Made by a program: the position numbers and the translations under genes. Positions 20,213-42,975 of a stretch of 58,249 nt of DNA are shown here, in pieces; the first letter of the stretch is position 1; each line of letters begins with the position of its first letter. Source of the stretch: Chlorobiaceae bacterium. Its GTDB lineage: Bacteria > Bacteroidota > Chlorobiia > Chlorobiales > Chlorobiaceae. The DNA is taken from the NCBI GenBank assembly GCA_013334525.1, contig JAAXXK010000013.1, positions 1 to 58,249 of the forward strand. Direction: 5' to 3'. The notes beneath the pieces were generated by a model that searched no databases, was not told where the DNA came from, and saw only the letters and a program-made list of their open reading frames with translations.

Positions 20213-20239
20213 ATTGAATGATTGATGCGGCGTGACCGT

Positions 20240-25964: not shown

Positions 25965-25988
25965 CGTTATAACCTATATTACATATCG
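25965..25988. promoter_or_regulatory. ModE-type box, distal site upstream of modD
   Basis: CGTTATA-N10-CATATCG. The E. coli modA operator has the form CGTTATA-N10-CATAACG; here 13 of the 14 arm positions agree. It lies about 260 bp upstream of modD. Confidence 0.65.
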
Positions 25989-26206
25989 TAACAGGTGACA
26001 ACGATTACCCGCCTAAGGGCTGAATCGACACAAACGTAGATAAAACAAGTGGCGAAAGTGTCGTATATCTGATTTATTTAGGGCTTTTATTATATTTTCC
26101 TTACTTTATTAGGCGTGTGGCGGCGATCAGCAATCAAATCGGAGAACCGTTACCCTGACTGATGCCATGGCAAAAGGGAGCCGAAAAGAGAAATAACCGC
26201 GCCTGA

Positions 26207-26230
26207 CGATATAGCCTTAATAACATAACG
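26207..26230. promoter_or_regulatory. ModE-type box, proximal site upstream of modD
   Basis: CGATATA-N10-CATAACG, 13 of 14 arm positions matching the E. coli ModE operator at the same spacing. It ends 16 bp before the modD ATG, a position suited to repression by Mo- or W-loaded ModE. Confidence 0.75.
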
Positions 26231-26246
26231 ACCGTACTTTATCAAG

Positions 26247-27098
26247 ATGTATTACCCGATTCCCGACATAGAAATCGAACGATATCTCGAAGAGGATGTT
26301 CCTTACGGCGACCTGACGACCAGCCTGCTCGGCATTGGCGGCAACGAAGGCGAAATAATATTTACGACACGCCAGCGAACCGTAGCCTGCTGCACCGAAG
26401 AGGCCGGGCGTGTGCTGGAGAAATGCGGGGCGCAGATCATCTATTCTGTCCCCTCGGGATCCGTCGTTGAACCCGGCACCCTCATCCTGAAGGCCAAAGG
26501 CCAGGCAGGAGCCCTGCATGGGGGTTGGAAAGTCGCACTCAACCTCCTGGAGTACGCATCAGGAATAGCGACCAATACCGCAGCCATCGTTGATAGCGCA
26601 CGCGCTGCCAACCCGGAGGTCAGTGTCGTTACGACAAGGAAGTCGTTTCCCGGAAGCAAAAAGGTGGCTATCAAGGCGATCATGGCGGGCGGTGCGCTGC
26701 CCCATAGGCTTGGCCTGTCGGAATCGATTCTCGTGTTCCCACACCACACCGTTTTTCTCGGCGGCCTCGAACCGTTTCTCGACAGCCTCGCGGCTTTGAA
26801 AAAGAGAGCCCCGGAACAGAAAATAATCGTCGAGGCGGAAACGCCTGAAGAAGCTCTGCTCATCGCAAGGGCAGGCGCCGATGTGGTGCAGGTCGACAAG
26901 ATCTCCATCGCGGCGCTGTCGAAACTGGTGCTTGATATCCGCGCCACCTGCCCCGGCGTGGCAATTTCCGCCGCAGGAGGGATCAACGCCGACAATGCAG
27001 CCGCGTATGCAGCCACAGGCATCGACATCATCGTACTCTCTTCGGTCTATTTCGGCAAGCCGTCTGATATTTCAGCAATCATCAACAAACAACCATAA
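26247..27098 (+). CDS. modD: ModD: quinolinate phosphoribosyltransferase-like protein of the molybdenum locus
   Basis: A 283-residue homologue of nicotinate-nucleotide pyrophosphorylase (NadC). It has the N-terminal LEEDVPYGDLTTSLLGI and catalytic-domain segments VVTTRKSFPGSKKVAIKAIMAGGALPHRLGLSESILVF, where true NadC usually has RKT-PG-R. C-terminal AISAAGGINADNAAAYAATGIDIIV follows. The MAGG and GLSESILVF variants plus the position before modABC mark the ModD branch. Its reaction is not established. It lies 22 bp before modA, behind two ModE-type boxes. Confidence 0.9.
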   Translation: MYYPIPDIEIERYLEEDVPYGDLTTSLLGIGGNEGEIIFTTRQRTVACCTEEAGRVLEKCGAQIIYSVPSGSVVEPGTLILKAKGQAGALHGGWKVALNLLEYASGIATNTAAIVDSARAANPEVSVVTTRKSFPGSKKVAIKAIMAGGALPHRLGLSESILVFPHHTVFLGGLEPFLDSLAALKKRAPEQKIIVEAETPEEALLIARAGADVVQVDKISIAALSKLVLDIRATCPGVAISAAGGINADNAAAYAATGIDIIVLSSVYFGKPSDISAIINKQP

Positions 27099-27120
27099 CC
27101 CTAAACAAACGATCATAGCA

Positions 27121-27870
27121 ATGAAATACTCATTCCAGCGCATCATCGTGCTGCTCTGCACATTCATGGCAACGGCACTGCCCGCCATGGCCGGCCAGCT
27201 CAACCTTTCGGCGGCGGCAAGCCTGAAAGAGAGCCTCAACGAGATGACCGACAAGTACACGGCAACCCATCCCGGTACTACGTTCGTCAAGAATTTCGGG
27301 GCTTCGGGTGCCCTTGCAGGCCAGATCGAGAACGGCGCTCCGGCCGACCTGTTCATTTCGGCGAGCACTGAATGGATGGATTACCTGAAAAACAAAAAAC
27401 TGGTGGACGCGGCAAGCGAGAAGAATTTTGCCTACAACCTGCTGGTTTTTGCAGGTTCTACAGGTAAAAAAGTCACCGGTATGAACGATCTTGCAGGAGT
27501 CGACAAGATCGCCATCGGCAGCCCTAAGAGCGTACCGGCAGGCGATTACGCGATGCAGGCCATCAAAAAATCCGGACTCGACCAGAAGCTTGCCGGTAAA
27601 CTGGTCATGGGCAAGGATGTCAGGGAGTGCCTCATGTATGCCGAACTTGGCGAAGTTGACGGCGCTTTCGTCTACAGGACCGATGCGCTCCAGGCAAAAA
27701 AGGCGAAAATCCTTTTCACCGTACCCGCCAATCTCTATTCGAGAGTCACCTATCCTATGGCATTGACTTCAACTGCCGCCAAAAACAGCGAGGCAAAAGC
27801 CTTCATCGACTGGCTGCAGGGTAGTGACGCCAAATCGATCCTGAAAAAATACGGTTTTGAACTTAACTGA
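27121..27870 (+). CDS. modA: Molybdate ABC transporter substrate-binding protein
   Basis: Periplasmic molybdate/tungstate-binding protein of 249 residues from ATG 27121. It has a signal peptide ending at LPAMAG, then LSAAASLKESLNEM (oxyanion-binding Ser), FGASGALAGQIENGAPADLFISAS, and VRECLMYAELGEVDGAFVYRTDA. Length and motifs are typical of ModA rather than WtpA. The modB start is 20 bp downstream. Confidence 0.96.
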   Translation: MKYSFQRIIVLLCTFMATALPAMAGQLNLSAAASLKESLNEMTDKYTATHPGTTFVKNFGASGALAGQIENGAPADLFISASTEWMDYLKNKKLVDAASEKNFAYNLLVFAGSTGKKVTGMNDLAGVDKIAIGSPKSVPAGDYAMQAIKKSGLDQKLAGKLVMGKDVRECLMYAELGEVDGAFVYRTDALQAKKAKILFTVPANLYSRVTYPMALTSTAAKNSEAKAFIDWLQGSDAKSILKKYGFELN

Positions 27871-27890
27871 GTTACAGGAGCTACTGAATC

Positions 27891-28586
27891 GTGCAGTTAA
27901 TGAACCTTTCGCCCTCGGATATCGAGGCTATAGCGCTGTCGATGAAGATAGCCGTTTCGGCTACGCTCATCTCCCTGCCGACAGGTTTCGCCGTAGCCGG
28001 GCTGCTGGTGTTCGGCAAGTTCAGGGGCAAAGTACTGCTCGAAGTCCTTGTCAACCTCCCCCTGACCCTTCCTCCGGTGGTGATCGGCTATTTCCTGCTG
28101 CTCCTGCTCGGCAAACACGGCTGGGCGGGCTCGGCGCTCAGGACAATGGGCATCGAGATCATCTTCACCTGGAAGGCCGCCGTCATCGCATCGGCGACCG
28201 TCGGCTTTCCCCTGCTCGTGCGTTCGATACGGCTCGGCATGGAGTCGATCGACCGGCAGCTCCTCCAGGCTTCCCGTAGCCTGGGAGCCCCATGGTACGA
28301 CACCCTGGCGACCATCGTCCTGCCGCTCTCATTCAGGGGAATGCTTGCAGGCTCCTCCCTGATGTTCGCCAGAAGCCTCGGTGAGTTCGGTGCGACCATC
28401 ATCGTAGCGGGCAATATTCCGGGAGTGACCCAGACCATTCCGCTCGCCATTTACGAATATGCAAGCTCACCGACCGGCACATCCATGGCCCTTTCGCTCT
28501 GCCTCGTCTCCGTCATTCTTTCAGTCGCAATCCTATTCGTGCACGAGGGGATCGGCAAAAAACTTGAACACGGGAGGGGCTCATGA
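27891..28586 (+). CDS. modB: Molybdate ABC transporter permease
   Basis: Integral membrane subunit, 231 residues, with about five membrane segments. The permease-ATPase coupling motif is QASRSLGAPWYDTLATIVLPLSFRGMLAG. The start is taken as GTG 27891 with CAGGAG upstream; ATG 27900 is an alternative. It overlaps modC by four bases (ATGA). Confidence 0.95.
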   Translation: MQLMNLSPSDIEAIALSMKIAVSATLISLPTGFAVAGLLVFGKFRGKVLLEVLVNLPLTLPPVVIGYFLLLLLGKHGWAGSALRTMGIEIIFTWKAAVIASATVGFPLLVRSIRLGMESIDRQLLQASRSLGAPWYDTLATIVLPLSFRGMLAGSSLMFARSLGEFGATIIVAGNIPGVTQTIPLAIYEYASSPTGTSMALSLCLVSVILSVAILFVHEGIGKKLEHGRGS

Positions 28587-29638
28587 TCCTTCGTATCGAC
28601 ATCGAAAAAACGCTTGGAGAGTTTTCGCTCAAAATGAAAAGCGAGATTTCGGGTGAGCGTATCGGCATATTCGGAGCTTCCGGAAGCGGCAAATCTACCC
28701 TCGTGCACCTGATAGCAGGCCTGCTGCATCCAGACTCGGGGGAGCTCTATCTCGATGACGCATGTCTTTACAGCGGCAGGAAAAGCATCAACCTCTCTCC
28801 TGAACAGCGCCGTATCGCCCTCGTCTTCCAGCAGGCGATGCTCTTTCCGCACCTTGGAGTCAAGGCGAACCTTCTCTACGGCTACAAGCGTTGCCGCCCT
28901 GAACACCGGAAAATCACCCCGGAGGCGCTGACAAAGGTGCTTAACCTTGAACACCTGCTTGATCGCGGTGTGGGCAACCTCTCCGGCGGTGAAAAACAGC
29001 GCGTCGCCCTCGGCAGGGCAGTGCTTGCCAACCCCCGGCTCCTGGTCATGGACGAACCGCTTTCGGCGCTCGACGACTCGTTGCGTTACCAGATCATTCC
29101 CTACCTGAGAAGCGTCAGCGAAGAGTTCAGGATTCCCTACATCTTCATCTCACATTCGATCACCGAGATGCAACTGATGACCGACAGGGTGCTCGTGGTG
29201 CAGAATGGGCGGATCTCCGGCGTTTCGACACCCGACGAACTGGCCCGCGCCAACATGTCTGTCAGCCCGCACGGTTACATGAACCTTCTGCGCCTGAAAG
29301 ATCCCGTCATGCAGGAGGGTCTTTTCCACTACCCATGGGGAAACGGCTCACTGATCGTTTCGTACGGCCGGCTGGAGGGCGAATCGCTGTTCGAGCTCTC
29401 GTCACGCGACATCATCCTGTTCAAGAAAAACCCTGAAGCGATCAGCGCACGAAACCTCATCGAATGCAGGGTTGCGGAGATATTCGACTCGGGAGGCAGG
29501 AAAGGAGTCGTACTTGAATCGGGCACCCAGAAGCTGGTCGCCGAAATTGTCCGCACTGCTGCTGAAGAGCTTGAAATATCGCCCGGTGCAACACTGTTCG
29601 CCGCAGTCAAAGCCTCGTCATTCAGATTGCTCGGATAA
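28583..29638 (+). CDS. modC: Molybdate ABC transporter ATP-binding protein
   Basis: A 351-residue ATPase that powers ModB. Walker A is GASGSGKST, signature NLSGGEKQRVALGRAV, Walker B LLVMDEPLSALDD and switch FISHSITEM. A C-terminal TOBE/Mop-like regulatory domain (about residues 290-350, LIECRVAEIFDSGGRKGVVLES) may bind molybdate and inhibit transport. It ends the modDABC operon and converges on the Moco-domain gene, with a structured element between them. Confidence 0.95.
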   Translation: MILRIDIEKTLGEFSLKMKSEISGERIGIFGASGSGKSTLVHLIAGLLHPDSGELYLDDACLYSGRKSINLSPEQRRIALVFQQAMLFPHLGVKANLLYGYKRCRPEHRKITPEALTKVLNLEHLLDRGVGNLSGGEKQRVALGRAVLANPRLLVMDEPLSALDDSLRYQIIPYLRSVSEEFRIPYIFISHSITEMQLMTDRVLVVQNGRISGVSTPDELARANMSVSPHGYMNLLRLKDPVMQEGLFHYPWGNGSLIVSYGRLEGESLFELSSRDIILFKKNPEAISARNLIECRVAEIFDSGGRKGVVLESGTQKLVAEIVRTAAEELEISPGATLFAAVKASSFRLLG

Positions 29639-29643
29639 AAAAA

Positions 29644-29740
29644 GGACACCTCTGTCCCGGTTGTTACCGCAAGGGGGTCAAGCGGCAGAAGCCGGACCGG
29701 TCCTGCGTTGCGCAGAAGACCGGCTAAAACAGAGATGTCC
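29644..29740. other. Highly structured intergenic element (97 bp) between convergent modC and Moco-domain gene
   Basis: The outer arms GGACACCTCTGT (29644-29655) and ACAGAGATGTCC (29729-29740) pair at 11 of 12 positions. Inside is a strong hairpin: CCGGTC-CTGCG (29697-29707), loop TTG, CGCAG-aa-GACCGG (29711-29723). CCGC (29667) and GCGG (29682) can form a further stem. Together they could fold as a three-way junction on either strand. It could be a bidirectional terminator, a small MITE with 12-bp terminal repeats, or a structured RNA. Confidence 0.55.
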
Positions 29741-29748
29741 GGAAACCA

Positions 29749-30291
29749 TTATTTCACGCCGGACGGAATTTTCGATATTTCAATACTCCGCACCAGTTTG
29801 ACGTGCCTGGGTCCGCTCTGCAGGTCAATGTCGCAGAAAACAACGAACGGGCCGTCCTTCCCTATCGCTCGGCCATCCTCCTCGATAACGAGCCAGGTAG
29901 CATCACCTGCCGCTCCGTAACAGAGCTCGTTATAGGAAAACAGCACGTTGTAGTCATCCTCCGAACGGACGAGCACATAATACTCTCCCCGCCTGCGGGG
30001 GTCGGGCATCGTGACCACGGCAGCATCGACGATGTCGCGCAACAGCACCCCCCGGAAGCTTTTCAGCGCATGTTTCGTCTCTCCGGATCCGCACACGATG
30101 TTCGTGTTCCCTTTTTCGACAACCTTCATCTTTCCGAGCGCTTCGACCGAAAGGTCAAGAGGATGCTCCACCAGCCCCGAGACCTTCAACGTTACCGGAG
30201 CAACCTTCCCGGCATCGGCATATGCAACAGAAAAAAGCGGAATGCATAGTGAAAAGGCAAGAATGACGAATCTGGCAATTCTTTTTTTCAT
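29749..30291 (-). CDS. Exported molybdopterin-binding domain protein (sulfite-oxidase-like fold)
   Basis: A 180-residue protein with a signal peptide ([18 protein letters not shown]) and a compact version of the oxidoreductase molybdopterin-binding domain (PF00174-like). The Cys in [27 protein letters not shown] would be the molybdenum thiolate ligand of this fold. It is half the length of sulfite oxidases, with no heme or dimerisation domain. It is the last gene of the long minus-strand metal operon, 18 bp after the TonB receptor. It might be a Moco enzyme, or a pterin/metal-binding accessory. Confidence 0.65.
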
Positions 30292-30309
30292 GACATCGGT
30301 ATCTTTTGG

Positions 30310-32376
30310 TTACAGGCGATAATTCAGACCGCCATAGAAATAGGTGCCGGTCATACCGGCTCCTTCGTTGTTGCCGTATCCGGCACTGGTATCCTGATTG
30401 AAGAGGTTGTCCACACCGGCAAACAGATCGGTTCCTTTAAAAACCGTTTTTGAGATGAAACAGTTGAGCAGGGTGTATCCTCCGGCCTTCTCGCTGGCCG
30501 ATATGTACTGATGGCCCGTAGAGATCACCCTGATGTTGCCCTTCAGGCCGATGGCGGCATCGGCATAGGAGAGCTTGACCATGTTGGTGAAGTCGGGTGC
30601 GAAGAGCAGCTTGTTGCCGGTCGTCTCGTTTTTGGTATCGAGGAACGAAACCTGGTCGGAAAGCGTCCACCCATGCTGCAACTTCAATGAGCCCCTGAAT
30701 TCGATACCACGGGTCACCGCCTCCAATACGTTTTCGAACCTGTAGGTCGCAGGTGTCGTCGTCGCATCGACAAGAGCCTGTGAAATCATGTTCTTCACCT
30801 CTGTCCTGAAACCGGTAATGCCCGATTCGAAAACGCCGGATACTAAGTCGGCTCCAAGTTCGAAGCTTCTCGATGTCTCGGCGGCGAGATCGGGATTGGC
30901 CAGTATGATGCTTTTCCTGGACTGGACCGATCCTGTGTAAAGCTCATAGAGTGAAGGCGCCCTGAACCCCTCGCCATAAGTGGCCCTCAGCTTCAGGTGC
31001 TCGTCGATCCTCAGGACTGAGGCGATTTTTGGACTGAACTCTGACCCGAAGTCGGAATGGTCGTCGAACCGGACTCCTGCAATGAAAGAGAGCGGTTCGG
31101 AGACATGGAACTCGTCCTGCGCGAAAAGGCCGAGGTTGGATGAATCGTGCGAAAGCCTCGACAGATCCGTCGTCGAGGTGGTTGTCGGACCGCTGGTTAT
31201 CACCCCGGTCGACACATTGTTCTTCGTCACGACCTTCCTTGTCGTCGTTTTACTGTAATCCTCCCTGTTTTCGGAGCGGTATTCCACCCCGGTCGTCAGG
31301 CGATGGGTGTCGGAAAGCATTCCCGTCCACTGCGCATCGAACTGGGAGGCATCCTGGGATACCTTTGTCAGCGTCGAGGTGTAGTTGTTTGTGGTCGTCT
31401 TTATCCCTGAGGCGATCGCCGTGGTGACGTAAGGCAATCCACCCAGATTATTCATATCCGAAGACCAGTCATAGGTGCTCCTCGAAACTCGCAGCGAAAG
31501 ATTCGATACCGTGCCGGTCCTGATTTCGGCACCGGCATATGCCATCAACCTGGTGCTCTCGACAAACCTGTCGAAATTACCTGTTGCCTGCGCACGGATT
31601 CCATCGAGCGTGTTATAGGCATAGATCGTGCCCGATGTCAGCTTCACGTCGGGTGTCAGCGCATAGGTCAACGCCACAGAACCGGAGGCGATGCGCTTGT
31701 CGTCGCCATCGGTGGTCAGGTCACTGGTATCCCGATCATACCGGCCACGGTCGTACCAGGAACCGGCGACTGCATAACCGAGCCTGCCTGTCGTTCCGGT
31801 CGCCCACCCGTCAGTCTGGACGGTTCCAGCCTGGCCGTACCGGCTTCCACCGCCCGATACCGTCAACCCCGCCTGCGCCTCCCGGCCCGGCTTCCGCGTT
31901 ATCACGTTGACCACCCCGCCAACGGCATCGCTGCCGTAAAGCGCCGACCCGGCCCCTCTGACGATCTCTATCCGATCTATTATTCCCGAAGGGATTTCGT
32001 GAAGGTCGATATAGCCCTGGAACCCGGAAGTAGGCCGTACTCCATCGATGAGAACAAGGGTCATGCGGCTGTCCAGCCCCCTCATCATCGCAACGCCGAG
32101 CCTTCCGTTGGTCGGTTCCACGGCATTGACATCCTGTGCCTCCGCAAGTATATCAGCAAGGTTCAGCGCTCCGCTCTCTTCTATCTGGGCTCTTGTGATC
32201 ACCTCGACGGCCAACGGCAGCCGGGATACGGGATTGGGTGTGCGGGTGGCGGTGACAACGATCTCCTCTCCCTGGACTGCAGGGGACAATCCGGCAGCCT
32301 GGATATTACCGTTAACACAACCGATCGCTGCAGCACCCATGAGCAGGCTGCAGGAATGTTTTTTCAGAAGCACCAT
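30310..32376 (-). CDS. TonB-dependent outer-membrane receptor (BtuB-like)
   Basis: A 688-residue receptor with a signal peptide, a TonB-box-like stretch GEEIVVTATRTPNPVSRLP and a plug domain (about residues 45-160: ADILAEAQDVNAVE..., RGLDSRMTLVLIDGVRP, IDRIEIVRGAGSALYGSDAVGGVVNVITRKP). A beta-barrel ending near GGLNYRL follows. It resembles cobalamin/siderophore receptors; the ligand is unknown. It is 65 bp after the ATPase gene in the minus-strand operon. A ModE-type box sits immediately before its ATG, and no strong ribosome-binding site is seen. Confidence 0.85.
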   Translation of the reverse strand: MVLLKKHSCSLLMGAAAIGCVNGNIQAAGLSPAVQGEEIVVTATRTPNPVSRLPLAVEVITRAQIEESGALNLADILAEAQDVNAVEPTNGRLGVAMMRGLDSRMTLVLIDGVRPTSGFQGYIDLHEIPSGIIDRIEIVRGAGSALYGSDAVGGVVNVITRKPGREAQAGLTVSGGGSRYGQAGTVQTDGWATGTTGRLGYAVAGSWYDRGRYDRDTSDLTTDGDDKRIASGSVALTYALTPDVKLTSGTIYAYNTLDGIRAQATGNFDRFVESTRLMAYAGAEIRTGTVSNLSLRVSRSTYDWSSDMNNLGGLPYVTTAIASGIKTTTNNYTSTLTKVSQDASQFDAQWTGMLSDTHRLTTGVEYRSENREDYSKTTTRKVVTKNNVSTGVITSGPTTTSTTDLSRLSHDSSNLGLFAQDEFHVSEPLSFIAGVRFDDHSDFGSEFSPKIASVLRIDEHLKLRATYGEGFRAPSLYELYTGSVQSRKSIILANPDLAAETSRSFELGADLVSGVFESGITGFRTEVKNMISQALVDATTTPATYRFENVLEAVTRGIEFRGSLKLQHGWTLSDQVSFLDTKNETTGNKLLFAPDFTNMVKLSYADAAIGLKGNIRVISTGHQYISASEKAGGYTLLNCFISKTVFKGTDLFAGVDNLFNQDTSAGYGNNEGAGMTGTYFYGGLNYRL

Positions 32377-32378
32377 AT

Positions 32379-32402
32379 CGTTATGTATTTGATGTTATAA
32401 TG
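32379..32402. promoter_or_regulatory. ModE-type box abutting the start of the second TonB receptor
   Basis: CGTTATG-N10-TATAATG, one mismatch in each arm from CGTTATA-N10-TATAACG, flanked by AT on both sides. It ends 2 bp from the receptor ATG (minus strand) and lies inside the operon, suggesting an internal promoter or operator. Confidence 0.55.
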
Positions 32403-32441
32403 ATGAGCAATAAACAAATGATCCCACAAGAATTTAACCGC

Positions 32442-33437
32442 TCAGGGGACCTCTTCGATCAGCTCGCCGTTCCGCAGGCGGGTACGAAGGGCGAGCAACC
32501 TGTTATCGAACGATTCGAGCACCGTCAGGTTCTCTTTCTCCCTCTCCGTGGTTGTGATCACCCGGTGGATCCCGCCGTTCCTGATCACCATGCGCTGATC
32601 GGCCATCAGGGCGAGTATCGGGTCGTGCGTTGCCATGAGCACGATCTTCTCTCTCCTGACCAGCAGCGACAGCGCCCGTTTCCGGTCGATTCCCGCGTTT
32701 TCGATCTCGTCGATCAGTACGACCGGCGAGGAACTGAGAAAAGCGGTGTCTGCGATCATCAGCGCCCTCGACTGCCCTCCCGAAAGCGAAGTGACCGGGG
32801 TGTCTGCGCTGAAAGGTTCGCCGGCAAGCTGGTTGGCCTGCATGATGATCTCTTCGACCACACCGGCGATGTTCTCCACCATACGGCTTTCGGCGTGCAT
32901 CGCCACAAACTCGGCGACCGTGGTGTCCATAACGAAGTTCATGTTTTGTGAAAGCTGGGCGACCAGTTTGTACTCGAGCGAAAACCTCAGTTCCGGATCC
33001 GGTTTTTCACCGTTGACCAGTATCGCCCGACCAGTCGGCGTATCGCACTGCGCCATCCATTCGATGTCGGCCAGCAGGCGGCTCTTGCCCGAACCCGTAG
33101 GGCCAACGATACTGGTGACCGATCCGCGTGTCAGTGTCAGCCGCAGCTGTTCCGGAGTACCGCTCTTGTCACGGCCGCCTATGACCGTAATTTCATTGAC
33201 TACAGGAAGATGGCCACTTTGAAGCATCAGTTGCTGAAGGAGGTACTCTTCGAGGTTTTCGACAAGACCCTGCATGTCGATGCCGATATCTTCGTACATC
33301 TCATCGGGAAGCGACTCCAGCCAGAGGCCGAGCGTAATGCCGCGCTCAAGGGGATCGAGACCGTAATCGCCCAGGAAAAGCGCGACCTGGGGCATATTCT
33401 CGTAAAGGTCTGCTATGGTTCTCTCAAGGATGTTCAT
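32442..33437 (-). CDS. Stand-alone ABC-type ATPase with N-terminal DUF1858-like segment
   Basis: A 331-residue cytoplasmic ATPase. Residues about 1-70 form an acidic helical region (VALFLGDYGLDPLERG) reminiscent of DUF1858/ScdA-N modules. Walker A is VGPTGSGKSRLL, the signature is TSLSGGQSRALMIAD, Walker B is VVLIDEIENAG and the switch is MATHDPILAL. The Asp-Glu-Ile-Glu Walker B and the unusual signature surroundings set it apart from import ATPases; the operon already has one. It is coupled by ATGA overlap to the GTPase gene. A cytoplasmic metal-handling role is inferred from context. Confidence 0.7.
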   Translation of the reverse strand: MNILERTIADLYENMPQVALFLGDYGLDPLERGITLGLWLESLPDEMYEDIGIDMQGLVENLEEYLLQQLMLQSGHLPVVNEITVIGGRDKSGTPEQLRLTLTRGSVTSIVGPTGSGKSRLLADIEWMAQCDTPTGRAILVNGEKPDPELRFSLEYKLVAQLSQNMNFVMDTTVAEFVAMHAESRMVENIAGVVEEIIMQANQLAGEPFSADTPVTSLSGGQSRALMIADTAFLSSSPVVLIDEIENAGIDRKRALSLLVRREKIVLMATHDPILALMADQRMVIRNGGIHRVITTTEREKENLTVLESFDNRLLALRTRLRNGELIEEVP

Positions 33438-34135
33438 GCAATCGGCTCCTCTTTCAGTTTGATCCTCTTGATGTTCCCGAGCTGATGCTCCATGCCGATC
33501 CTCGTTTCCCCGAGGCAGTAGGAGCAGAGTGCCGCCGGCATCGAAAAGCGCAGGCGGGAGCCGTCAAGGCATGTGGTTTCCGGTGCGTTCAGGAACTGGG
33601 ATGCCAGTTCGGCCGCACCCTGGCCGGTAATGCCGTTGACATGCATGATCCTGGCCTTCGGGTTGGCCCGCCTGACCTGGAAGGCGAAAACCTCTCGCTC
33701 AGCCTGGGAGACTATGTCCCCCTTGGTGATGACCACGATGTCGGCATACTTGAGCATTGGCCCGATCTTCTTCGGGGTGGTTGCGCCCATGAGGTTGTCA
33801 ATGACGCAGACTGCCAGCACCCCCTTGATATGCGGAGCGCAACGGTTGCAGAGGCCGGCGCTTTCGGAGAGCAGGAAATCCAGCCCCTGGCTAAAACCCC
33901 AGTCGAGGCATTCCTCGATATTGCTCACAAAGTAGTGGTCCGGACAGAGGTTGCCCGACAAACCGGTCTGCACGGGTACGCCCAGCGATCGGAAAATGGC
34001 ATCGTCATCCGTGGTCAGACAGTCGTACTTCAACGCTCCGACCTTGACGCCCGAAGCGATCATCGAGCGGATGACCCCGGCAAGAACAGCGGTCTTTCCG
34101 GATGAAGGCGGACCCGATATAGTGACAAGTTTCAT
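33434..34135 (-). CDS. P-loop GTPase-like protein with two CxxC motifs (HypB/CobW-like)
   Basis: A 233-residue protein with P-loop SGPPSSGKTAVLAGVI at residues 6-21, a probable switch/base region IVVITKGD (NKxD-like), and two Cys pairs, LCNRCAPH (about residue 97) and LCSYCLGET (about residue 204). This layout recalls HypB, UreG and CobW metal-insertion GTPases, but the sequence is not one of them. The Cys pairs could bind metal. It sits between a binding-protein gene and an ATPase gene, and its stop overlaps the ATPase start. Confidence 0.7.
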   Translation of the reverse strand: MKLVTISGPPSSGKTAVLAGVIRSMIASGVKVGALKYDCLTTDDDAIFRSLGVPVQTGLSGNLCPDHYFVSNIEECLDWGFSQGLDFLLSESAGLCNRCAPHIKGVLAVCVIDNLMGATTPKKIGPMLKYADIVVITKGDIVSQAEREVFAFQVRRANPKARIMHVNGITGQGAAELASQFLNAPETTCLDGSRLRFSMPAALCSYCLGETRIGMEHQLGNIKRIKLKEEPIA

Positions 34136-34154
34136 GATTGATCTCAGAATTCAG

Positions 34155-35225
34155 TCAGGTTTGAAAAACATCAGGGCGAAGCCCTTTTTTCAGTTCGGTG
34201 TTTAGCGACTCGGTCATTGCCTCGTAGTCGCACTGCAGGAGAAAGTCCCACGACGGGAAGCAGAATGGCTGCGTCCAGTCGAAATCGTCCGCATGGTGGA
34301 AGTCGCCCCTGCGAAGGGCCTGCCGCATGATATTGCTGTGCATGAAGTTGATCAGCGGGCGGCACTCCTCCATCCTTGAGGCCTTGACATACATGAGCAT
34401 GGGAGCGAGAATCGGCCCATCCTCGAACTCGAGAATCGCTCCCCGCTTGTTTGAAGGCATCTGCACTGTGGCGGCATTTGGCAGCAGGTTGAACGGTGTA
34501 CGCCTCGGCTCGGACGAATCGATACGCTTCAGGATCTCGGCGAAATGCCAGACGTTGCGGATATTGGCGGCAAAGTCCGTAATGGCGCTGCTGCCGAGCT
34601 GCTCCCTGAGCAGGAGAAGCAGGGAGGCGATGCTCGCCTTGCCGTTGTAGCCGTGCACCGTGATGAGATCCTTGTAGCGCGGATCGACCAGGTCGACCCA
34701 TCGCCCAGGATAGGGCACACCGGAATCAAGGGAGAGATCGCATACGACGCTCCAGAATCCCGTGCTGTAAATCCCGATGTTATGCTGTGATACCAATTGG
34801 CGGTACAATTCGGGCATTTTGGCGAGAGCGGACTCGCTGGTGACCCCGCGGTATACGCCGGTATCGATGAAGCGCTCCCTGAACCCTTTCGAAAGGACCG
34901 TATGCAGACCGGAAGCGATAAGAACCTCGGGAAGTTCGTCCTCGGTCATTGCCGCCTTGAGCTCCCCTTCAATGCCTTTCGAGTCGCCGTCGAGAAGCAT
35001 CGGAGAGTATATGGGCACATCATGCGAGCTGTTGTAGAGCGCGGCGAATTCGCCGATCACCATTTTGCAAACCACCTTGAGGGGGCATGGCATGTTCATG
35101 TAGAGGTTGATAGCCCCTTTTCTCAGTAACGGCACCCCGTTTCCGGTGGCTTTCCGATGGAGCGGCGGAGCTCCGCAGTATGCAAGAAGGCTGCCCTCCC
35201 TGTCCGTTTTATCGACTGTGTTCAT
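34155..35225 (-). CDS. Periplasmic-binding-protein-like protein without a signal peptide
   Basis: A 356-residue type II (Fe3+/oxyanion-type) solute-binding fold. Recognisable parts are VLIASGLHTVLSKGFRERF, VPYPGRWVDLVDPRYKDLITVHGYNGKA and IMRQALRRGDFHHADDFDW. The N-terminus (MNTVDKTDREGSLLAYCGAPP) shows no signal peptide or lipobox, so it should be cytoplasmic. A CPLKVVC pair near residue 47 could bind metal. Its start overlaps the end of the FecB gene by 17 bp, behind GAGGGAC. It is likely an intracellular ligand carrier rather than a transporter subunit. Confidence 0.7.
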   Translation of the reverse strand: MNTVDKTDREGSLLAYCGAPPLHRKATGNGVPLLRKGAINLYMNMPCPLKVVCKMVIGEFAALYNSSHDVPIYSPMLLDGDSKGIEGELKAAMTEDELPEVLIASGLHTVLSKGFRERFIDTGVYRGVTSESALAKMPELYRQLVSQHNIGIYSTGFWSVVCDLSLDSGVPYPGRWVDLVDPRYKDLITVHGYNGKASIASLLLLLREQLGSSAITDFAANIRNVWHFAEILKRIDSSEPRRTPFNLLPNAATVQMPSNKRGAILEFEDGPILAPMLMYVKASRMEECRPLINFMHSNIMRQALRRGDFHHADDFDWTQPFCFPSWDFLLQCDYEAMTESLNTELKKGLRPDVFQT

Positions 35226-36333
35226 AATGTCCCTCAGGTTTATTTTCGATCTGTCCCTTACGGCTGCCCGCTGGAAGATGGGTATCCAGTACCTCCTTCA
35301 GTTCGGCATCAGATAGATCGCGGTGAAAAAAGAGGCTGAAATACTCCTTCACAGCCCGCTCAAGATCGATATGATACACATCGGGATAGAGCAGGTCGGC
35401 CAGCCATATAGCCCCGAGAATCCTGTTGGTTCCCGGAGGCCGGTCGAACCAGCCGAACGGTTTGCAGGGAATCTGGTACATCCGGTGATCCCTGACGGCA
35501 GGAACCTTCGCCCACAGCGGATCGCCGGAGATGTTCCGGTATGTGGTCAATTCGGGTCCCATGCCGGTCCAGACGATGACGACATCGGGGTTCCACTTCA
35601 GGATCTGCTCCATCGAAACCGCGCTCATCCCTTTCCCGGACATGAGCTGGACCTTTGCCACGTTGGTTCCACCAACCAGGTCGATCACCTCGCTGTGGAA
35701 CGACCCCGAGGGATCGGTATTCAGCCCCATGCCGCCCTCGGCGTAATAGATCTTTTTCCTGCTGCTGTCGGGTATTTGCCCGGCCTTGTCGAACACCGGG
35801 GTGAGCCATGTATCGATGTATCGGATCATCCTGTCGGTCTGTTCCCTGCGGCCAAGCAGCTCTCCCATCGCCGCGAACGACTTCGTATAGCGCTTCATGT
35901 CCATGTCGACCATGAAGACCGGGACACCGGTTTTGGCACTGAGCCGGTCAGCCTCTTCTATCGACTTGGGGTTGATGTTGAAATAGGAGATGATAACGTC
36001 CGGATGGAACTTGATGATCTCTTCTGCCGACCCGTCCGCAAAGGGCAGCTTCAGGTAGGCTTCGCTCATGAACTTTTCCGATCCATCGGTCATCCAGAGC
36101 GAACGGTTCACCATAAGGTCCGGTGCGACAGCATAGAGCACCACGCTTCCCGGCCTGGTCGAGTAGACTTTCTTTATGACGGTCGGAACTGCCATTTTCC
36201 TGCCGGCCATATCCGTGACCTGTCGCGTGTCGAGGCGGGTTTTGCCGGCTTTGCCACACGCGCAGAGCGTCAGGAGCAGCAGCGGCAAGATCATCCGGAG
36301 AAGACGGTATTGATTCATAAAGTTTCTTTTCAT
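35209..36333 (-). CDS. ABC transporter substrate-binding lipoprotein (FecB/BtuF class)
   Basis: A 374-residue protein from ATG 36333, with a near-perfect ribosome-binding site (GAGGAGGT). The signal sequence ends in the lipobox LTLC-ACG. The mature part has class III binding-protein features: RQVTDMAGRKMAVPTVIKKV, FHPDVIISYFNINPKSIEEADRLSAKTGVPVFMVDMD and VSMEQILKWNPDVVIVWTG. It would deliver a metal chelate to the FecC permease encoded in the same operon. Its start overlaps the methyltransferase stop (ATGA). Confidence 0.85.
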   Translation of the reverse strand: MKRNFMNQYRLLRMILPLLLLTLCACGKAGKTRLDTRQVTDMAGRKMAVPTVIKKVYSTRPGSVVLYAVAPDLMVNRSLWMTDGSEKFMSEAYLKLPFADGSAEEIIKFHPDVIISYFNINPKSIEEADRLSAKTGVPVFMVDMDMKRYTKSFAAMGELLGRREQTDRMIRYIDTWLTPVFDKAGQIPDSSRKKIYYAEGGMGLNTDPSGSFHSEVIDLVGGTNVAKVQLMSGKGMSAVSMEQILKWNPDVVIVWTGMGPELTTYRNISGDPLWAKVPAVRDHRMYQIPCKPFGWFDRPPGTNRILGAIWLADLLYPDVYHIDLERAVKEYFSLFFHRDLSDAELKEVLDTHLPAGSRKGQIENKPEGHYEHSR

Positions 36334-36962
36334 GGTTTTACCTCCTCGGGTTTGCTGAATATGATCCAGGTGCCGGCCTCTTCGTGCTCCACCGTCCCGG
36401 TGATTCCGAGCCTTTTGAGCAGCGCCCGGTAATGCTCCGGAGGGTTCTTTGTCATCCGCTCCTTTCGTTTCCGGCTCCATTCCGGATCGTTCGCCCTGAG
36501 TTGTTCGACCTCGCGGAGCAATTCCAGGGTTCCGAAACCACCGCCTATGAACGCCCATCCTCCCGGCCTGAGAACACGGAATACTTCGGCAAGCCCCTGT
36601 TGCTGGTTCTCCCAGAAAAAGATCGATCCCCGGCTCACGACAAGATCGATCGATCTATCTTCGAAAGGCAGCTCCTCAGCCACCCCCTGCATGGCATCGA
36701 CCCGGTGCCCGTAGCCCTCTTCAAGGCTGTTCTGCCGCACCAGCTCGACGCACTCCTGCATGAGGTCGACCACCGTCACGCGAAGCATGGTGATCTTTGC
36801 AATGGAGATACCGAGCATCCCCGGCCCTCCGCCCAGGTCGATGCATCTGCCGGTGATCACGCCGGTCCGGTTGATGACCTGCCTGGCTATCTCCGGATAG
36901 ATTTTCCGGAAATGCCCCTTCATGACCTTCTCGTTGAACTCAACCGCATCCATGGTATACAT
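36330..36962 (-). CDS. Class I SAM-dependent methyltransferase
   Basis: A 210-residue UbiE-like methyltransferase. SAM motif I is CIDLGGGPGMLGISIAK, then VTVVDLMQECVELVR, EELPFEDRSIDLVVSRGSIFFW and VFRVLRPGGWAFIGGGFG. ATG 36962 follows GGAGGAGAAACGCG. It is embedded between the ABC ATPase and FecB genes and overlaps fecB, so it belongs to the transporter unit. Modifying an imported chelate or tetrapyrrole is a possible role; the substrate is not readable from sequence. Confidence 0.82.
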   Translation of the reverse strand: MYTMDAVEFNEKVMKGHFRKIYPEIARQVINRTGVITGRCIDLGGGPGMLGISIAKITMLRVTVVDLMQECVELVRQNSLEEGYGHRVDAMQGVAEELPFEDRSIDLVVSRGSIFFWENQQQGLAEVFRVLRPGGWAFIGGGFGTLELLREVEQLRANDPEWSRKRKERMTKNPPEHYRALLKRLGITGTVEHEEAGTWIIFSKPEEVKP

Positions 36963-37003
36963 CGCGTTTCTCCTCCGTTATCTCTCTATTGTTAGTATCG
37001 TTC

Positions 37004-37804
37004 TCACCCCACCACCGGTGCACAGACCTTTCTTGTACCCGCGCCATCGTCCGGCGCGTCAAACACCTGGACATCCACTCCATACACGCTCTTCAGTGTC
37101 TCGGGAGTCAGCATCGCGTCGGGAGAACCTTTGTGGCTGAGCCTCCCGGCGGCCAGCACGGCGACCCTCGAGGCCGTCATGAAAGCATGATCAGGATGGT
37201 GCGTCGCCATGAGGATGCCGATCGAACGACCGGCAAGTTCCCGGATCTTCCTGATGACCCTTACCTGGTTGCCGTAATCGAGGTTCGATGCCGGCTCGTC
37301 GAGAATCATAAAACGTGCCTCCTGGGCAAGTGCCCTTGCGATGATGACCATCTGGCGCTCGCCTCCGCTGAGTTCGTTGAACGACCGGTCGGCAAGGTGC
37401 GCCATTTCGAGGATTTCGAGACACTCAGCAGCGATCGAACGGTCTTTCTTTCCCGGCGCCGCGAACAGGCCGAGATGCGCTGTACGGCCAAACAGAACGA
37501 CATCACGTACCTTGTATGAGAACGGCATGGCATACGATTGCGGCACATATGAAACGAATCCGGCCACCTCTTTCGGGGAAAGGCGCGACAGATCCCTGCC
37601 GTCGACGCTGATCGTGCCATAAACCGGCTTGATGAACCCGAGCATCGTCCTGAACAGGGTCGTTTTGCCGGCTCCGTTCTGGCCAAGAAGGCAAAGAATG
37701 TCACCCGACCGGATCTCCAGGTCGACATCATGCACAATGGCCTTGCCGTTGTAGCCCAACCCCGCCCCTTTCATTTGAAGCACAATGCCGTTACTGTTCA
37801 CCAT
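37004..37804 (-). CDS. ABC transporter ATP-binding protein (FecE/BtuD class)
   Basis: A 266-residue ATPase from ATG 37804, which overlaps the permease stop. Walker A is GQNGAGKTTLFRTM, signature LSGGERQMVIIARALA, Walker B FMILDEPASNLDYG, switch ATHHPDHAF. It powers the FecC permease encoded just upstream. 41 bp separate it from the methyltransferase gene. Confidence 0.9.
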   Translation of the reverse strand: MVNSNGIVLQMKGAGLGYNGKAIVHDVDLEIRSGDILCLLGQNGAGKTTLFRTMLGFIKPVYGTISVDGRDLSRLSPKEVAGFVSYVPQSYAMPFSYKVRDVVLFGRTAHLGLFAAPGKKDRSIAAECLEILEMAHLADRSFNELSGGERQMVIIARALAQEARFMILDEPASNLDYGNQVRVIRKIRELAGRSIGILMATHHPDHAFMTASRVAVLAAGRLSHKGSPDAMLTPETLKSVYGVDVQVFDAPDDGAGTRKVCAPVVG

Positions 37805-38793
37805 GAGTGTATCGATGATTTTTTCATGACCCATATGAAAAAGGGAGCACCCGCAACCGCCGTGATGATGCCGATCGGAATCTCCACGGAAACCGCCGAA
37901 CGGGCAACCGTATCGACCGCAAGCATAAACGCCGCTCCGATCAGGAACGAGACCGGTAGGAGCATTCGGTGATTCGGGCCTGCCACGAACCTCGATATGT
38001 GGGGCACGACCAGCCCCACCCAACCAATGATGCCGCACACCGAAATCACGCTGGCCGTCACCATTGTCGCGCAAACGATGACCACAGCGCGCATCATACC
38101 GGTGTGCAGGCCGAGCGATCGGGCCTCCTCCTCGCCAAAAGACAGAACGTTAAGCCGCCAACTTACCAGCATCAACGGCACGGCTCCGGCTGTGACCATG
38201 AAAAGCACCGTTTTGAGCTCCCGCATACGGATGTCGGCGAGGCTTCCCATAAGCCAGTATGTAATGGCAGGTAGCTTGTCGAGTGGGTCGGCCACATACT
38301 TGAGCATCGACAGCAACGCGCCGAACAACGACGAAACAACGATACCGGAAAGCACCAGCACGAGCACCGAATCGTTTCCCTTGCCGATAGCCCGACTGAC
38401 TGCAACGGCAACAAGCACCGCGGATATGCCGCCCGTGAACGACATGATCTGGACAACCGCCGCTGGCATCGATAGCAGGATGGCGAGCGCTGCCCCGAAA
38501 CCAGCTCCCGAAGAGACTCCTAGGATGTCGGGGCTGACCATCGGATTGCGGAAAAGACCCTGATAGGCCGCTCCTGAAATCGCGAGCGCCCCACCAGCAG
38601 CAATGGCAGCAATCAGGCGAGGCAGCCGAATGCCTTCCATGATGAGCGGTACGTTAACATCTGCGATCCCCCCCGTTATCAGCCATGAGATGATCGTGCC
38701 CGGTGAAACCGGATACCGGCCGATTCCGAGGGAGAGGATGCAAATGCCTGCAAGCACACACATGCAGAGCAGGATCAGGGAAATACTTTTCAT
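37798..38793 (-). CDS. FecCD-family ABC transporter permease
   Basis: A 331-residue permease with about nine or ten membrane helices. Family signatures are RLPRLIAAIAAGGALAISGAAYQGLFRNP, LGVSSGAGFGAALAI and the coupling region CGIIGWVGLVVPHISRFVAGPNH. It is the BtuC/FhuB class that imports cobalamin, heme, siderophores or, in H. influenzae MolB, molybdate. The ligand here is undetermined; context points to a Mo-responsive chelate. Confidence 0.92.
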   Translation of the reverse strand: MKSISLILLCMCVLAGICILSLGIGRYPVSPGTIISWLITGGIADVNVPLIMEGIRLPRLIAAIAAGGALAISGAAYQGLFRNPMVSPDILGVSSGAGFGAALAILLSMPAAVVQIMSFTGGISAVLVAVAVSRAIGKGNDSVLVLVLSGIVVSSLFGALLSMLKYVADPLDKLPAITYWLMGSLADIRMRELKTVLFMVTAGAVPLMLVSWRLNVLSFGEEEARSLGLHTGMMRAVVIVCATMVTASVISVCGIIGWVGLVVPHISRFVAGPNHRMLLPVSFLIGAAFMLAVDTVARSAVSVEIPIGIITAVAGAPFFIWVMKKSSIHSW

Positions 38794-38880
38794 GGTACAT
38801 CAACAACTGGTTGACCGACATCCGGACCCGAGAACTTGCAAAAGGCTGAGCCCGGATCGCCATTGATAACTGCCGTGAAA

Positions 38881-40881: not shown

Positions 40882-40896
40882 TGGATCTGGTAGTTG

Positions 40897-40920
40897 CGTT
40901 ATAACTTTCACTACATAACT
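40897..40920. promoter_or_regulatory. ModE-type box upstream of first TonB receptor
   Basis: CGTTATA-N10-CATAACT, 13 of 14 arm positions identical to the E. coli ModE operator. It lies between the tetrapyrrole-type methyltransferase gene and the receptor gene. Confidence 0.72.
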
Positions 40921-40937
40921 GTTTTCAAAAAAAGGGG

Positions 40938-41741
40938 TCACTCTGCACATTTCAAGAAAATGGCAGAACGGTTCCGGGATTCAAATGGCGATCTCCTCAC
41001 CCTCACATATCGTCCGATAGTGAAGACCACGGGATCGTTTATCCCCAGTGAAAACCTTTCAGCTCCCATCGCGCCCAGCGTGGTTTCAACCATGGCCTCT
41101 TCAGGCCAGCCAGCCTTGCTGACTGCGACAACCGGAGTATCATCCGGAACCCCTTCTTCAGTGAATATCCCAAGTATGAAGGGAAGGTTTGCAGTAGCCA
41201 TATAGAGTACCATGGTAGCACCATGTCCGAACATTTTCGCCCCGTTTCGGAGATGATGTTCGAGATCATCGGTTACTTCGTTGGCAATGATGTTGACTAC
41301 GGCATCGCACTCGAATTTGCGGCTTATCGGCATGGCGTAAGCGCTGGCCGCAGCGGCTCCGGCAGATACTCCCGGTAAGATCACATAGGGAATACCGATC
41401 TGGTCGAGGACGTCACACTCGTCCACTTCGCCTCCGAACAGTGTCGGATCGCCGGCCTTCAGGCGAACGACCTTTTGTCCTCCGAGATAATGATCCCGGA
41501 TAGACCTGATCATCGGCGTCTCCTCGCGGCACCCCTCACCATTTTCGTACTGCGAACGTTCAACGGCAATAACGTTTGCGGTTTCGGATGCGACACGCAA
41601 TGCAGGCTCGACCGTTTTGCAGTCATACAGGATTACTTCGGCATTGCGGATCGCCGAAGCCGCCTTCACCGTCAGCAGTTCGGGATCACCGGGGCCTGTG
41701 CCGACAATCAATACGGTGTTTTTCTGTTTGTTTTCTATCAT
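40938..41741 (-). CDS. Divergent tetrapyrrole-type (SUMT/CobA-like) SAM methyltransferase
   Basis: A 267-residue protein from ATG 41741 (an upstream GTG at 41765 is possible). The family core is clear: VGTGPGDPELLTVKAASAI, VVRLKAGDPTLFGGEVDE and VILPGVSAGAAAASAYAMP. It departs from uroporphyrinogen-III methyltransferase after PGVSA: the usual T-H-R and V-TGH elements are replaced by ISRKFECDAVVNIIANEV. The substrate may therefore be another corrin/porphyrin or a different compound. It is the first gene of the long minus-strand operon, right after a ModE-type box. Confidence 0.75.
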   Translation of the reverse strand: MIENKQKNTVLIVGTGPGDPELLTVKAASAIRNAEVILYDCKTVEPALRVASETANVIAVERSQYENGEGCREETPMIRSIRDHYLGGQKVVRLKAGDPTLFGGEVDECDVLDQIGIPYVILPGVSAGAAAASAYAMPISRKFECDAVVNIIANEVTDDLEHHLRNGAKMFGHGATMVLYMATANLPFILGIFTEEGVPDDTPVVAVSKAGWPEEAMVETTLGAMGAERFSLGINDPVVFTIGRYVRVRRSPFESRNRSAIFLKCAE

Positions 41742-41767
41742 GATGACTAACTTTTTAAGTTCCACTC

Positions 41768-41791
41768 GTTATAGTTGTACCGTTATAACGA
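41768..41791. promoter_or_regulatory. ModE-type box at the head of the long metal operon
   Basis: Perfect inverted repeat CGTTATA-N10-TATAACG, followed by AT as in the extended E. coli consensus. This is the best site in the window. It is 26 bp upstream of ATG 41741. Confidence 0.8.
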
Positions 41792-42153: not shown

Positions 42154-42579
42154 ATGAACATCAGCGCACGCAACATCTTCAAGGGCACAGTTTCATCAGT
42201 AGTAAACGGCTCCGTCAATGCCGAGGTCTCGATCACCCTTGCCGATGGGACACAGATCGTTTCGGTCATAACCAACGGGGCCGTTGAACGGCTTGGGCTG
42301 AAAGAGGGTATGGTCGCCAGCGCAATCGTCAAGGCCAGCTCGATCATCGTCGGCACCTTCCTGCTGGACGCAAAACTGAGCGCCAGGAACATCCTCAGCG
42401 GCACAATCACCAAAGTGATCGAAGGGCCTGTAAGCTCAGAGGTCGATATTGAAATCGGCAGCGGCAACATCCTGTCGGCCGTCATCACCCACGGCAGCTC
42501 AACCAAAATGGGGCTCGCAGCCGGCAGCAGGGCCTGCGCAATCTTCAAGGCCTCCAGCGTCATCATCGGCGTAGACTGA
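42154..42579 (+). CDS. mop: Di-Mop molybdenum-pterin-binding protein (molbindin)
   Basis: A 141-residue cytoplasmic protein made of two tandem Mop/TOBE domains (about residues 1-68 and 73-141). Each starts with a SARN(I)F/L-KGT-like motif (ISARNIFKGTVSSVVNGSV; LSARNILSGTITKVIEGPV) and ends with VKASSIIVG or FKASSVIIG. Such proteins bind molybdate or tungstate for homeostasis. The gene sits at the right end of the metal island on the opposite strand to the long operon; no ModE-type box was found directly before it. Confidence 0.92.
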   Translation: MNISARNIFKGTVSSVVNGSVNAEVSITLADGTQIVSVITNGAVERLGLKEGMVASAIVKASSIIVGTFLLDAKLSARNILSGTITKVIEGPVSSEVDIEIGSGNILSAVITHGSSTKMGLAAGSRACAIFKASSVIIGVD

Positions 42580-42728: not shown

Positions 42729-42975
42729 GGTTGGCAATATCATCGGGGCATATAAATCATTATGCATCCATCAGGGGTTGACCAGGATCGAACAGGATTT
42801 CCCCGGGCGAACATTGGGTAAATTGTGGCAACGCAATTACTGGGAACACATCATCCGCAATGAACAGGATCTGAAACGAATCCGGGAATATATCTGTACC
42901 AACCCATCCCGATGGGAACTGGATACCTTGAATCCCTTTCAAACAAATGGTCCATCAACAGCGTTTTCGTCGTGA
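42622..42975 (+). pseudogene. C-terminal remnant of a REP-associated tyrosine transposase (RAYT, IS200-like)
   Basis: From just after an in-frame TAG (42619-42621), 117 codons encode a RAYT tail: TVGNIIGAYKSL, then LGKLWQRNYWEHIIRNEQ and DLKRIREYI...NPSRWELD. These match the C-terminal half of RAYT proteins. The N-terminal catalytic half (HUH motif and start) is absent. An Asp-His repeat (SDHSDHPDHSGH) lies near the truncation. Two GGGGCGCCCC-TACG palindromes bracket the remnant's 5' part (42622 and about 42716). Confidence 0.75.

Follow-up and report, generated by a model that had tools for sequence, protein, structure and literature searches.

Genes and boxes of the island

We analysed a 58,249-nt stretch of a Chlorobiaceae genome (contig JAAXXK010000013.1; hereafter the window), taken from an assembly of 2.55 Mb that is 93.9% complete. 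The window holds a cluster of genes, here called the island, in which two TonB-dependent receptors (TonB1 and TonB2), an importer resembling MolABC, modDABC, a molbindin gene (Mop) and a trio of cytosolic proteins lie among copies of a 24-bp palindrome resembling the Escherichia coli ModE operator. On sequence grounds, the view of this cluster as an acquisition island responsive to molybdenum or tungsten (Mo or W) is well supported; its cargo and the direction of its control are what we infer.

An earlier note, made from the letters alone, had reported the motif at five places, next to modDABC and along an eleven-gene co-directional run. Sites were confirmed at 25965, 26207, 32379 and 40897, and the fifth moved by one base (41767, where the note had 41768). 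The run indeed extends on the minus strand from the tetrapyrrole methylase (41765) to a small Oxidored_molyb-domain protein (29749), and modD, modA, modB and modC follow in that order on the plus strand. The Mop gene went unmentioned in the note, and the trio was not singled out there. The features are as follows.

25965..25988, no strand: Mo-box E, 1 mismatch, between modD and a divergent lolD-like gene
26207..26230, no strand: Mo-box D, 1 mismatch, 17-40 bp upstream of the modD ATG
26247..27098, plus: modD, TIGR01334 over cut-off
27121..27870, plus: modA, TIGR01256 over cut-off, ATG at 27121
27891..28586, plus: modB, TIGR02141 over cut-off
28583..29638, plus: modC, TIGR02142 over cut-off
29749..30291, minus: small Oxidored_molyb-domain protein, PF00174 (28.8 bits, cut-off 24)
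30310..32376, minus: TonB-dependent receptor 2 (TonB2), plug and barrel Pfam domains (PF07715, PF00593)
32379..32402, no strand: Mo-box C, 1 mismatch, 3-26 bp upstream of the TonB2 ATG (32376)
32442..33437, minus: soluble ABC ATPase of the trio, PF00005, no permease of its own alongside
33434..34135, minus: HypB/UreG-like GTPase of the trio, PF02492, six near-invariant cysteines
34155..35225, minus: SBP_bac_6 protein of the trio (SBP6), PF13343, near-invariant Cys47
35209..36333, minus: MolA-like binding protein, PF01497, start corrected to 36333
36330..36962, minus: class I S-adenosylmethionine methyltransferase, PF08241
37004..37804, minus: MolC-like (FecE-like) ATPase, best PDB match HI1470 (E=2.3e-41), start estimated
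37798..38793, minus: MolB-like FecCD permease, PF01032
38881..40881, minus: TonB-dependent receptor 1 (TonB1), plug and barrel Pfam domains (PF07715, PF00593), start corrected by translation
40897..40920, no strand: Mo-box B, 1 mismatch, 16-39 bp upstream of the TonB1 start at 40881
40938..41765, minus: tetrapyrrole (SUMT-like) methylase, PF00590
41767..41790, no strand: Mo-box A, perfect match, upstream of the tetrapyrrole methylase
42154..42579, plus: molbindin (Mop), PF03459 (106.9 bits), two TOBE stretches

The pattern CGTTATA-N10-YATAACG was searched on both strands of the window, palindromes being scored on each, and counts were compared with a reversed-pattern control and, in the window, with 100 shuffles. 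The window holds 15 matches with up to three mismatches, while the shuffles average 2.8, the largest giving 8, and none of the 100 reaches 15. All five sites with at most one mismatch in the whole assembly fall inside the window. With the start of TonB1 corrected, box B becomes intergenic, and the Mop gene begins 364 bp from box A, on the side opposite the methylase. Boxes D and E recur in locus L029.

Among solved structures, the permease is nearest to HI1471 (E=2.8e-65, 224 bits; BtuC gives 145 bits) and the ATPase to HI1470, with HI1472 third for the binding protein, so that the analogy with MolBC of Haemophilus influenzae drawn in the earlier note has support from sequence. We take HI1471, HI1470 and HI1472 to be MolB, MolC and MolA. 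The MolA-like binding protein is probably a lipoprotein, judging by an LCAC lipobox seen by eye. TonB2 best matches the colicin I receptor CirA (E=1.5e-47), a catecholate receptor; the PDB matches of TonB1 are weak (BtuB, the colicin I receptor and CntO).

A modE gene and the conservation of the boxes

A full-length modE gene, the homologue whose presence the earlier note had left to be checked, was found in the genome at C69:68699 (HTH_1 and two TOBE stretches; TIGR00637 104.2 bits, cut-off 98.5). It stands behind nifD/E-like matches (C69:60786-65267), with a candidate two-mismatch box upstream (C69:68456). We then compared 81 genomes, the window's own included. ModE was matched in 49 of them, 46 over the cut-off, and boxes were counted per genome group at up to one mismatch against the reversed-pattern control. 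The 47 genomes with ModE hold 243 matches versus 63 for the control, and the 32 genomes lacking a ModE match hold 32 versus 171. Two genomes with weak ModE matches (G068 and G077; 2 matches versus 24) were kept apart from this tally. The motif excess thus follows ModE as a group effect, not in every genome.

For promoter comparison, we took 17 stretches and tallied boxes with up to two mismatches, again including our own window. The boxes are kept in orthologous upstream regions, a check that the earlier note had proposed: box A in 11 of 11 fetched islands holding the methylase promoter, box B in 11 of 11 holding the TonB1 promoter and box C in 9 of 9 holding a close TonB2 promoter. Three Chlorobium-type islands (L037, L039 and L040) lack the methylase, and in all three a box lies ahead of the permease.

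We aligned the window with the fetched stretches holding each promoter; L172 and L173, which likewise carry boxes A and B, were left out. Over the three promoters, pairwise identity is 0.86-0.88 in the arms, a value inflated by the choice of sites through pattern matching, 0.45-0.78 in the spacer, 0.42-0.46 in the upstream flank and 0.39-0.68 downstream, the figure of 0.68 belonging to box B, where that stretch enters the gene. All 31 aligned sites have the dinucleotide TT 8 bp ahead of the box, extended to TTG in 22, and ATA in the right arm. The TT(G/A) and right-arm ATA resemble -35 and -10 elements separated by 19 bp and overlain by the box. At all three promoters the box would cover the presumed core elements, an arrangement suited to repression, with ModE shutting out RNA polymerase.

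The cytosolic trio and its neighbours

The GTPases are 78-96% identical to that of the window. Four cysteines (Cys64, 96, 99 and 110) are invariant in 68 of 68 sequences, and Cys204 and Cys207 are kept in 67 of 68. By fold, the GTPase model is closest to UreG and HypB, and the protein shares a P-loop and many cysteines with the HypB/UreG/CobW metallochaperone GTPases. However, its scores against the HypB and UreG equivalogs (48.0 bits, cut-off 121.2, and 25.9 bits, cut-off 204.2, respectively) lie far below the cut-offs, it has CNRC and CSYC motifs, its partners are an ABC ATPase and a protein with the fold of a substrate-binding protein, and no nickel enzyme was recognised among the island genes. 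The GTPase therefore appears, from its sequence, to work like HypB or UreG without being filed as either. Because its predicted local distance difference test (pLDDT) score falls below 50 at 208-233, no metal site was read near the C-terminal cysteines. In clostridial fusions, GTPase and ATPase form a single chain.

SBP6 shares the fold of periplasmic ferric-binding proteins (PF13343). Its model (pLDDT 91.8) is predicted by Foldseek to have the FbpA/FutA fold (TM score of about 0.6), with Cys47 starting the helix after strand 39-43. In this fold, ligands are bound around the helix that follows that strand. One cysteine is kept in 69 of the 70 members (out of 76) that adjoin a GTPase or ATPase gene and on which conservation was computed. 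Unlike the periplasmic proteins, the 76 listed SBP6 relatives have no evident signal-like N terminus, as judged from hydropathy and by eye, no signal-peptide predictor being used and several starts being uncertain. An N-terminal match to DUF1858 was seen in four tested relatives, over the cut-off in one and below it in three.

Beyond the Chlorobiaceae, the trio recurs in Clostridia, Geobacter-type bacteria, Deferribacteres, Bacteroidales and Spirochaetes, often adjoining mod, MolABC-like or nif genes and in some loci under boxes. A GTPase profile scan gave 110 relatives, and in the best 80 of these 110 loci the ATPase cluster is present in 63, two SBP6 clusters in 69 and both partners in 56. 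The 63 non-Chlorobiaceae loci are those nearest the Chlorobi GTPase. By open reading frame (ORF) cluster, their neighbours include MolB/A-like genes in 26, mod genes in 17, Mop in 9 and nif-type genes in 7, with at least one of these in 39 of the 63. Boxes number 85 over the best 80 of the 110 loci, versus 16 for the control; this total divides into 38 versus 0 in 17 Chlorobiaceae loci and 47 versus 16 in the others. Of the 63 non-Chlorobiaceae loci, 31 qualified for a comparison of the 250 bp ahead of SBP6, and 5 of the 31 have a box there, versus 0 of 31 for the control; the five come from Desulfuromonadaceae, Geobacter (two), Deferribacterales and Proteobacteria. This comparison excluded L116, whose box stands 87 bp ahead of SBP6, because its GTPase ORF is uncalled.

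NifH was sought in the genomes of 50 of the 63 non-Chlorobiaceae loci, leaving out L104 (from the same genome as L101) and 12 more; the background comprised one order of 225 genomes, that of Clostridium ljungdahlii, and 14 control genomes. NifH scored over the cut-off in 44 of the 50 GTPase-bearing genomes and in 3 of the 14 controls. In the order of C. ljungdahlii, 45 genomes have the GTPase, 67 have NifH over the cut-off and 30 have both (odds ratio 7.7, Fisher P=8e-9), NifH being present in 37 of the 180 genomes without the GTPase. The trio is tied to nitrogenase without being exclusive to it; the tie is strong, not strict.

NifQ is a Mo donor for the iron-molybdenum cofactor (FeMo-co) of nitrogenase. 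It resembles the trio only in the latter's possible role as Mo donor, the proteins being unrelated. Its family, PF04891, was unmatched in 61 of 64 genomes holding SBP6 or the GTPase and matched in 3; it is absent from the Pfam matches of the island proteins, and none was found in G000. Genes of the DUF364/DUF4213 type (putative heavy-metal chelation) adjoin the trio at L138:11740-12498 (C. ljungdahlii) and at L131:10726-11487 (a Pelosinus metagenome-assembled genome), the former by Pfam match and the latter by ORF cluster. The idea that clostridial loci carry an Fe-only nitrogenase was discarded, the best model at L129 being Mo-type NifD and an AnfO-like match falling below the cut-off.

Within the compared genomes, one SBP6-bearing genome has two copies, and SBP6 fragments occur in two further genomes. 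One remnant (L045:9470-9710, G010) lacks nearly all of SBP6 and the whole of GTPase and ATPase between importer and TonB2; in another (L173:5522-6357, G006), TonB1 continues into the last part of the ATPase. A second set of Mop, box, methylase, box, TonB1 and permease start lies at a contig end in G001 (L172:1-4200), whose assembly is 84% complete and 5% contaminated. In G050 (L042:3926-12649), the second SBP6 copy, a paralogue preceded by a box, lies after anfO and before a sigma-54 activator and a LysR regulator; a weak ModE match at this second copy proved to be the LysR regulator, not ModE. In G031, where SBP6 is unmatched, a box is directly followed by a TonB2-like receptor (43% identity), with modB-like, Mop and partial modA-like (27%) matches 3-5 kb away, and L038 has a similar arrangement. 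In six Chlorobiaceae loci a gene of one and the same cluster adjoins the trio; the single member of that cluster tested proved to be a TonB protein.

What the island may do

We consider it likely, on balance, that the island is a Mo-scarcity regulon in which ModE boxes couple TonB-dependent and MolABC-type import to an undescribed intracellular trio for Mo handling. ModE with molybdate or tungstate would occupy the 24-bp boxes and block RNA polymerase. As Mo falls, the two receptors, the MolABC-type importer and ModABC would be produced, importing a Mo species too scarce or too large for porins, such as a catecholate, another chelate or a thiomolybdate of sulfidic water. The GTPase, ABC ATPase and FbpA-fold protein would free, carry or insert the metal in steps driven by nucleoside triphosphates (NTPs), Mop, probably a storage protein, would buffer Mo, and nitrogenase would be a main customer. 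Another chelate needed when Mo is scarce, the alternative cargo offered in the earlier note, is less likely.

By analogy with metallochaperone systems, which it resembles, the trio may shuttle Mo from one carrier to another. A more specific proposal, which we hold only tentatively, is that the trio is an NTP-driven Mo-handling machine: GTPase and soluble ABC ATPase would load or unload the cysteine-bearing FbpA-fold carrier, extract Mo from the imported chelate or thiomolybdate and deliver it to FeMo-co synthesis, replacing NifQ in anaerobes. In any case, the trio offers a conserved gene target for asking how Mo reaches nitrogenase without NifQ.

Mo is scarce in sulfidic water, and green sulfur bacteria fix N2 there; a ModE-controlled route of this kind, if real, would explain how they do so. 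Azotobacter takes up Mo by means of catecholate siderophores, and the island is alike in its apparent outer-membrane uptake of chelated Mo, the nearest solved kin of TonB2 being CirA. It differs in that no chelator synthesis was recognised among the island genes and in that its boxes are of the ModE type. With the E. coli-type ModE regulon it shares box arms and spacing, a full-length ModE and a box ahead of mod genes; its boxes extend further, to TonB receptors, a MolABC-like importer and the trio. ModE sites predicted in delta-proteobacteria are tabulated at mod operons only, in the species studied, in the excerpted text of one survey (Rodionov 2004, PMC545781), and the predicted ModE regulon of Geobacter sulfurreducens is said, in an excerpt, to include several transport systems (Aklujkar 2009, PMC2700814). 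Part of the trio may be among these systems. Neither an island nor a trio of this kind is described in any title or abstract opening among the matches listed for open-licence PMC papers.

MolBC-A of H. influenzae, a molybdate/tungstate importer, provides the closest solved kin of the island permease and ATPase, and the third closest of the binding protein, whereas the island importer shares its ModE-boxed gene run with TonB receptors and the trio. In the excerpted text of PMC4031551, molB is repressed by molybdate through a regulatory factor described as unknown. The presence of TonB receptors in the same regulon points to a Mo complex as substrate. If so, this would answer why the low-affinity MolBC-A is molybdate-repressed, its real substrate perhaps being a Mo complex.

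Several observations weigh against the Mo-scarcity regulon, or against parts of it. The same excerpt describes MolBC-A as a low-affinity molybdate importer whose deletion leaves low-molybdate uptake unaffected, although low affinity combined with repression by molybdate leaves room for a Mo complex as the true substrate. The binding protein matches PDB entries 4pag and 4ovk and only then 3psa (HI1472, MolA). No Mol model is found among the NCBIfam matches of the importer proteins; the permease scores best with BtuC (232.6 bits, cut-off 461), the MolC-like ATPase with an F420-0 transporter (216.3, cut-off 372.4) and TonB2 with the B12 receptor TIGR01779 (203.8, cut-off 599.7), in each case below the cut-off. 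The island is patchy, with intact SBP6 in 14 of 81 genomes versus a nitrogenase-family match in 51, and in G010 it lacks the GTPase, the ATPase and all but a fragment of SBP6 while keeping importer and TonB2. Outside the Chlorobiaceae, 24 of the 63 loci have no Mol, mod, Mop or nif neighbour, and 15 of the 45 GTPase-bearing genomes in the order of C. ljungdahlii lack NifH over the cut-off, for which reason a strict dependence of the trio on nitrogenase was rejected. As to the boxes, A has two mismatches in L031, L035 and L036, as has B in L032. Genome-wide totals at up to two mismatches (7+8) hardly exceed those of the reversed pattern (6+8); we therefore do not claim significance for genome-wide motif counts, and the significance of the box rests on strong sites, clustering and conservation. 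Three Chlorobiaceae without a ModE match (G006, G009 and G043) exceed the control (19 versus 4) and contribute 19 of the 32 matches of their group, their modE perhaps missing from the assemblies, and some ModE genomes are not above the control (for example G047, 0 versus 2).

The rival that survives best, though we think it unlikely, is that the island serves Mo-independent metabolism: with Mo absent, ModE would release import of iron, vanadium or another chelate, chiefly for an Fe-only nitrogenase. AnfD scores over the cut-off in 5 of 14 island genomes versus 2 of 67 others (P=0.0013) and, within the family, in 4 of 13 versus 2 of 36 (P=0.036). In four of the five (G002, G030, G042 and G050), anfD and an SBP6 copy share a contig and are no more than 25 kb apart, the boxed paralogue of G050 follows anfO, and the predicted fold of SBP6 is that of ferric-binding proteins. 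However, the island is not restricted as accessory genes of an alternative nitrogenase would be, 9 of its 14 genomes, our own included, having no AnfD over the cut-off (Vnf was not searched separately). Among solved proteins its permease and ATPase are closest to MolBC, and at L129 GTPase-ATPase and SBP6 are joined to mod genes and a NifD that matches the Mo-type model best (638 bits, just under the cut-off of 653.55). L114, L123 and L144 resemble L129 by ORF cluster, and L116 has mod genes and NifD over the cut-off.

We find it doubtful that the cargo of the importer is a cofactor of tetrapyrrole, corrinoid or pterin-like type, used according to Mo status and processed or bound by the methylase and the Oxidored_molyb-domain protein. 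The operon is headed by a SUMT-like methylase, BtuC and the B12 receptor are the best sub-threshold models of permease and TonB2, and the PF00174 protein adjoins TonB2. Against this stand the higher score of the permease with HI1471 than with BtuC, the three islands missing the methylase, and an Rfam scan of the window in which no family reached its gathering score. The methylase itself (154 bits) falls below the SUMT cut-off of 185, and several island bearers (G002, G003, G007 and G014) additionally have a SUMT over the cut-off, which led us to reject a housekeeping SUMT; judged by these scores, it is an island-specific paralogue. No second SUMT over the cut-off was found in our own genome or in G001, for which gaps in the two assemblies may account.

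ModE activates some promoters in other bacteria, and the box alone gives no sign of control. Activation by ModE, or the action of another regulator of the same motif, nevertheless seems improbable, since at three promoters the box sits across the presumed core elements, the same box precedes modD, and the motif excess accompanies ModE. The sites are hardly chance AT-rich palindromes: the two-mismatch genome count does approximate the reversed control, but none of the strong sites lies outside the window, and relatives retain them at three promoters.

The Oxidored_molyb-domain protein has a signal-like N terminus by eye, and a PDB search with it gave no match. The GC content of the island (0.550) does not differ from that of the rest (0.543), so there is no compositional sign of recent transfer. 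ARAGORN reports a tRNA with undefined anticodon at 20172-20260, which is probably spurious. Between Mop and a short-chain dehydrogenase gene, a remnant at 42790-42975 resembles, by eye, the C-terminal end of a REP-associated (Y1-type) transposase. Finally, a RuBisCO-like large-chain protein (PF00016) is encoded at 46455-47771 on the minus strand, near short-chain dehydrogenases (45563-46393 and 48783-50903).

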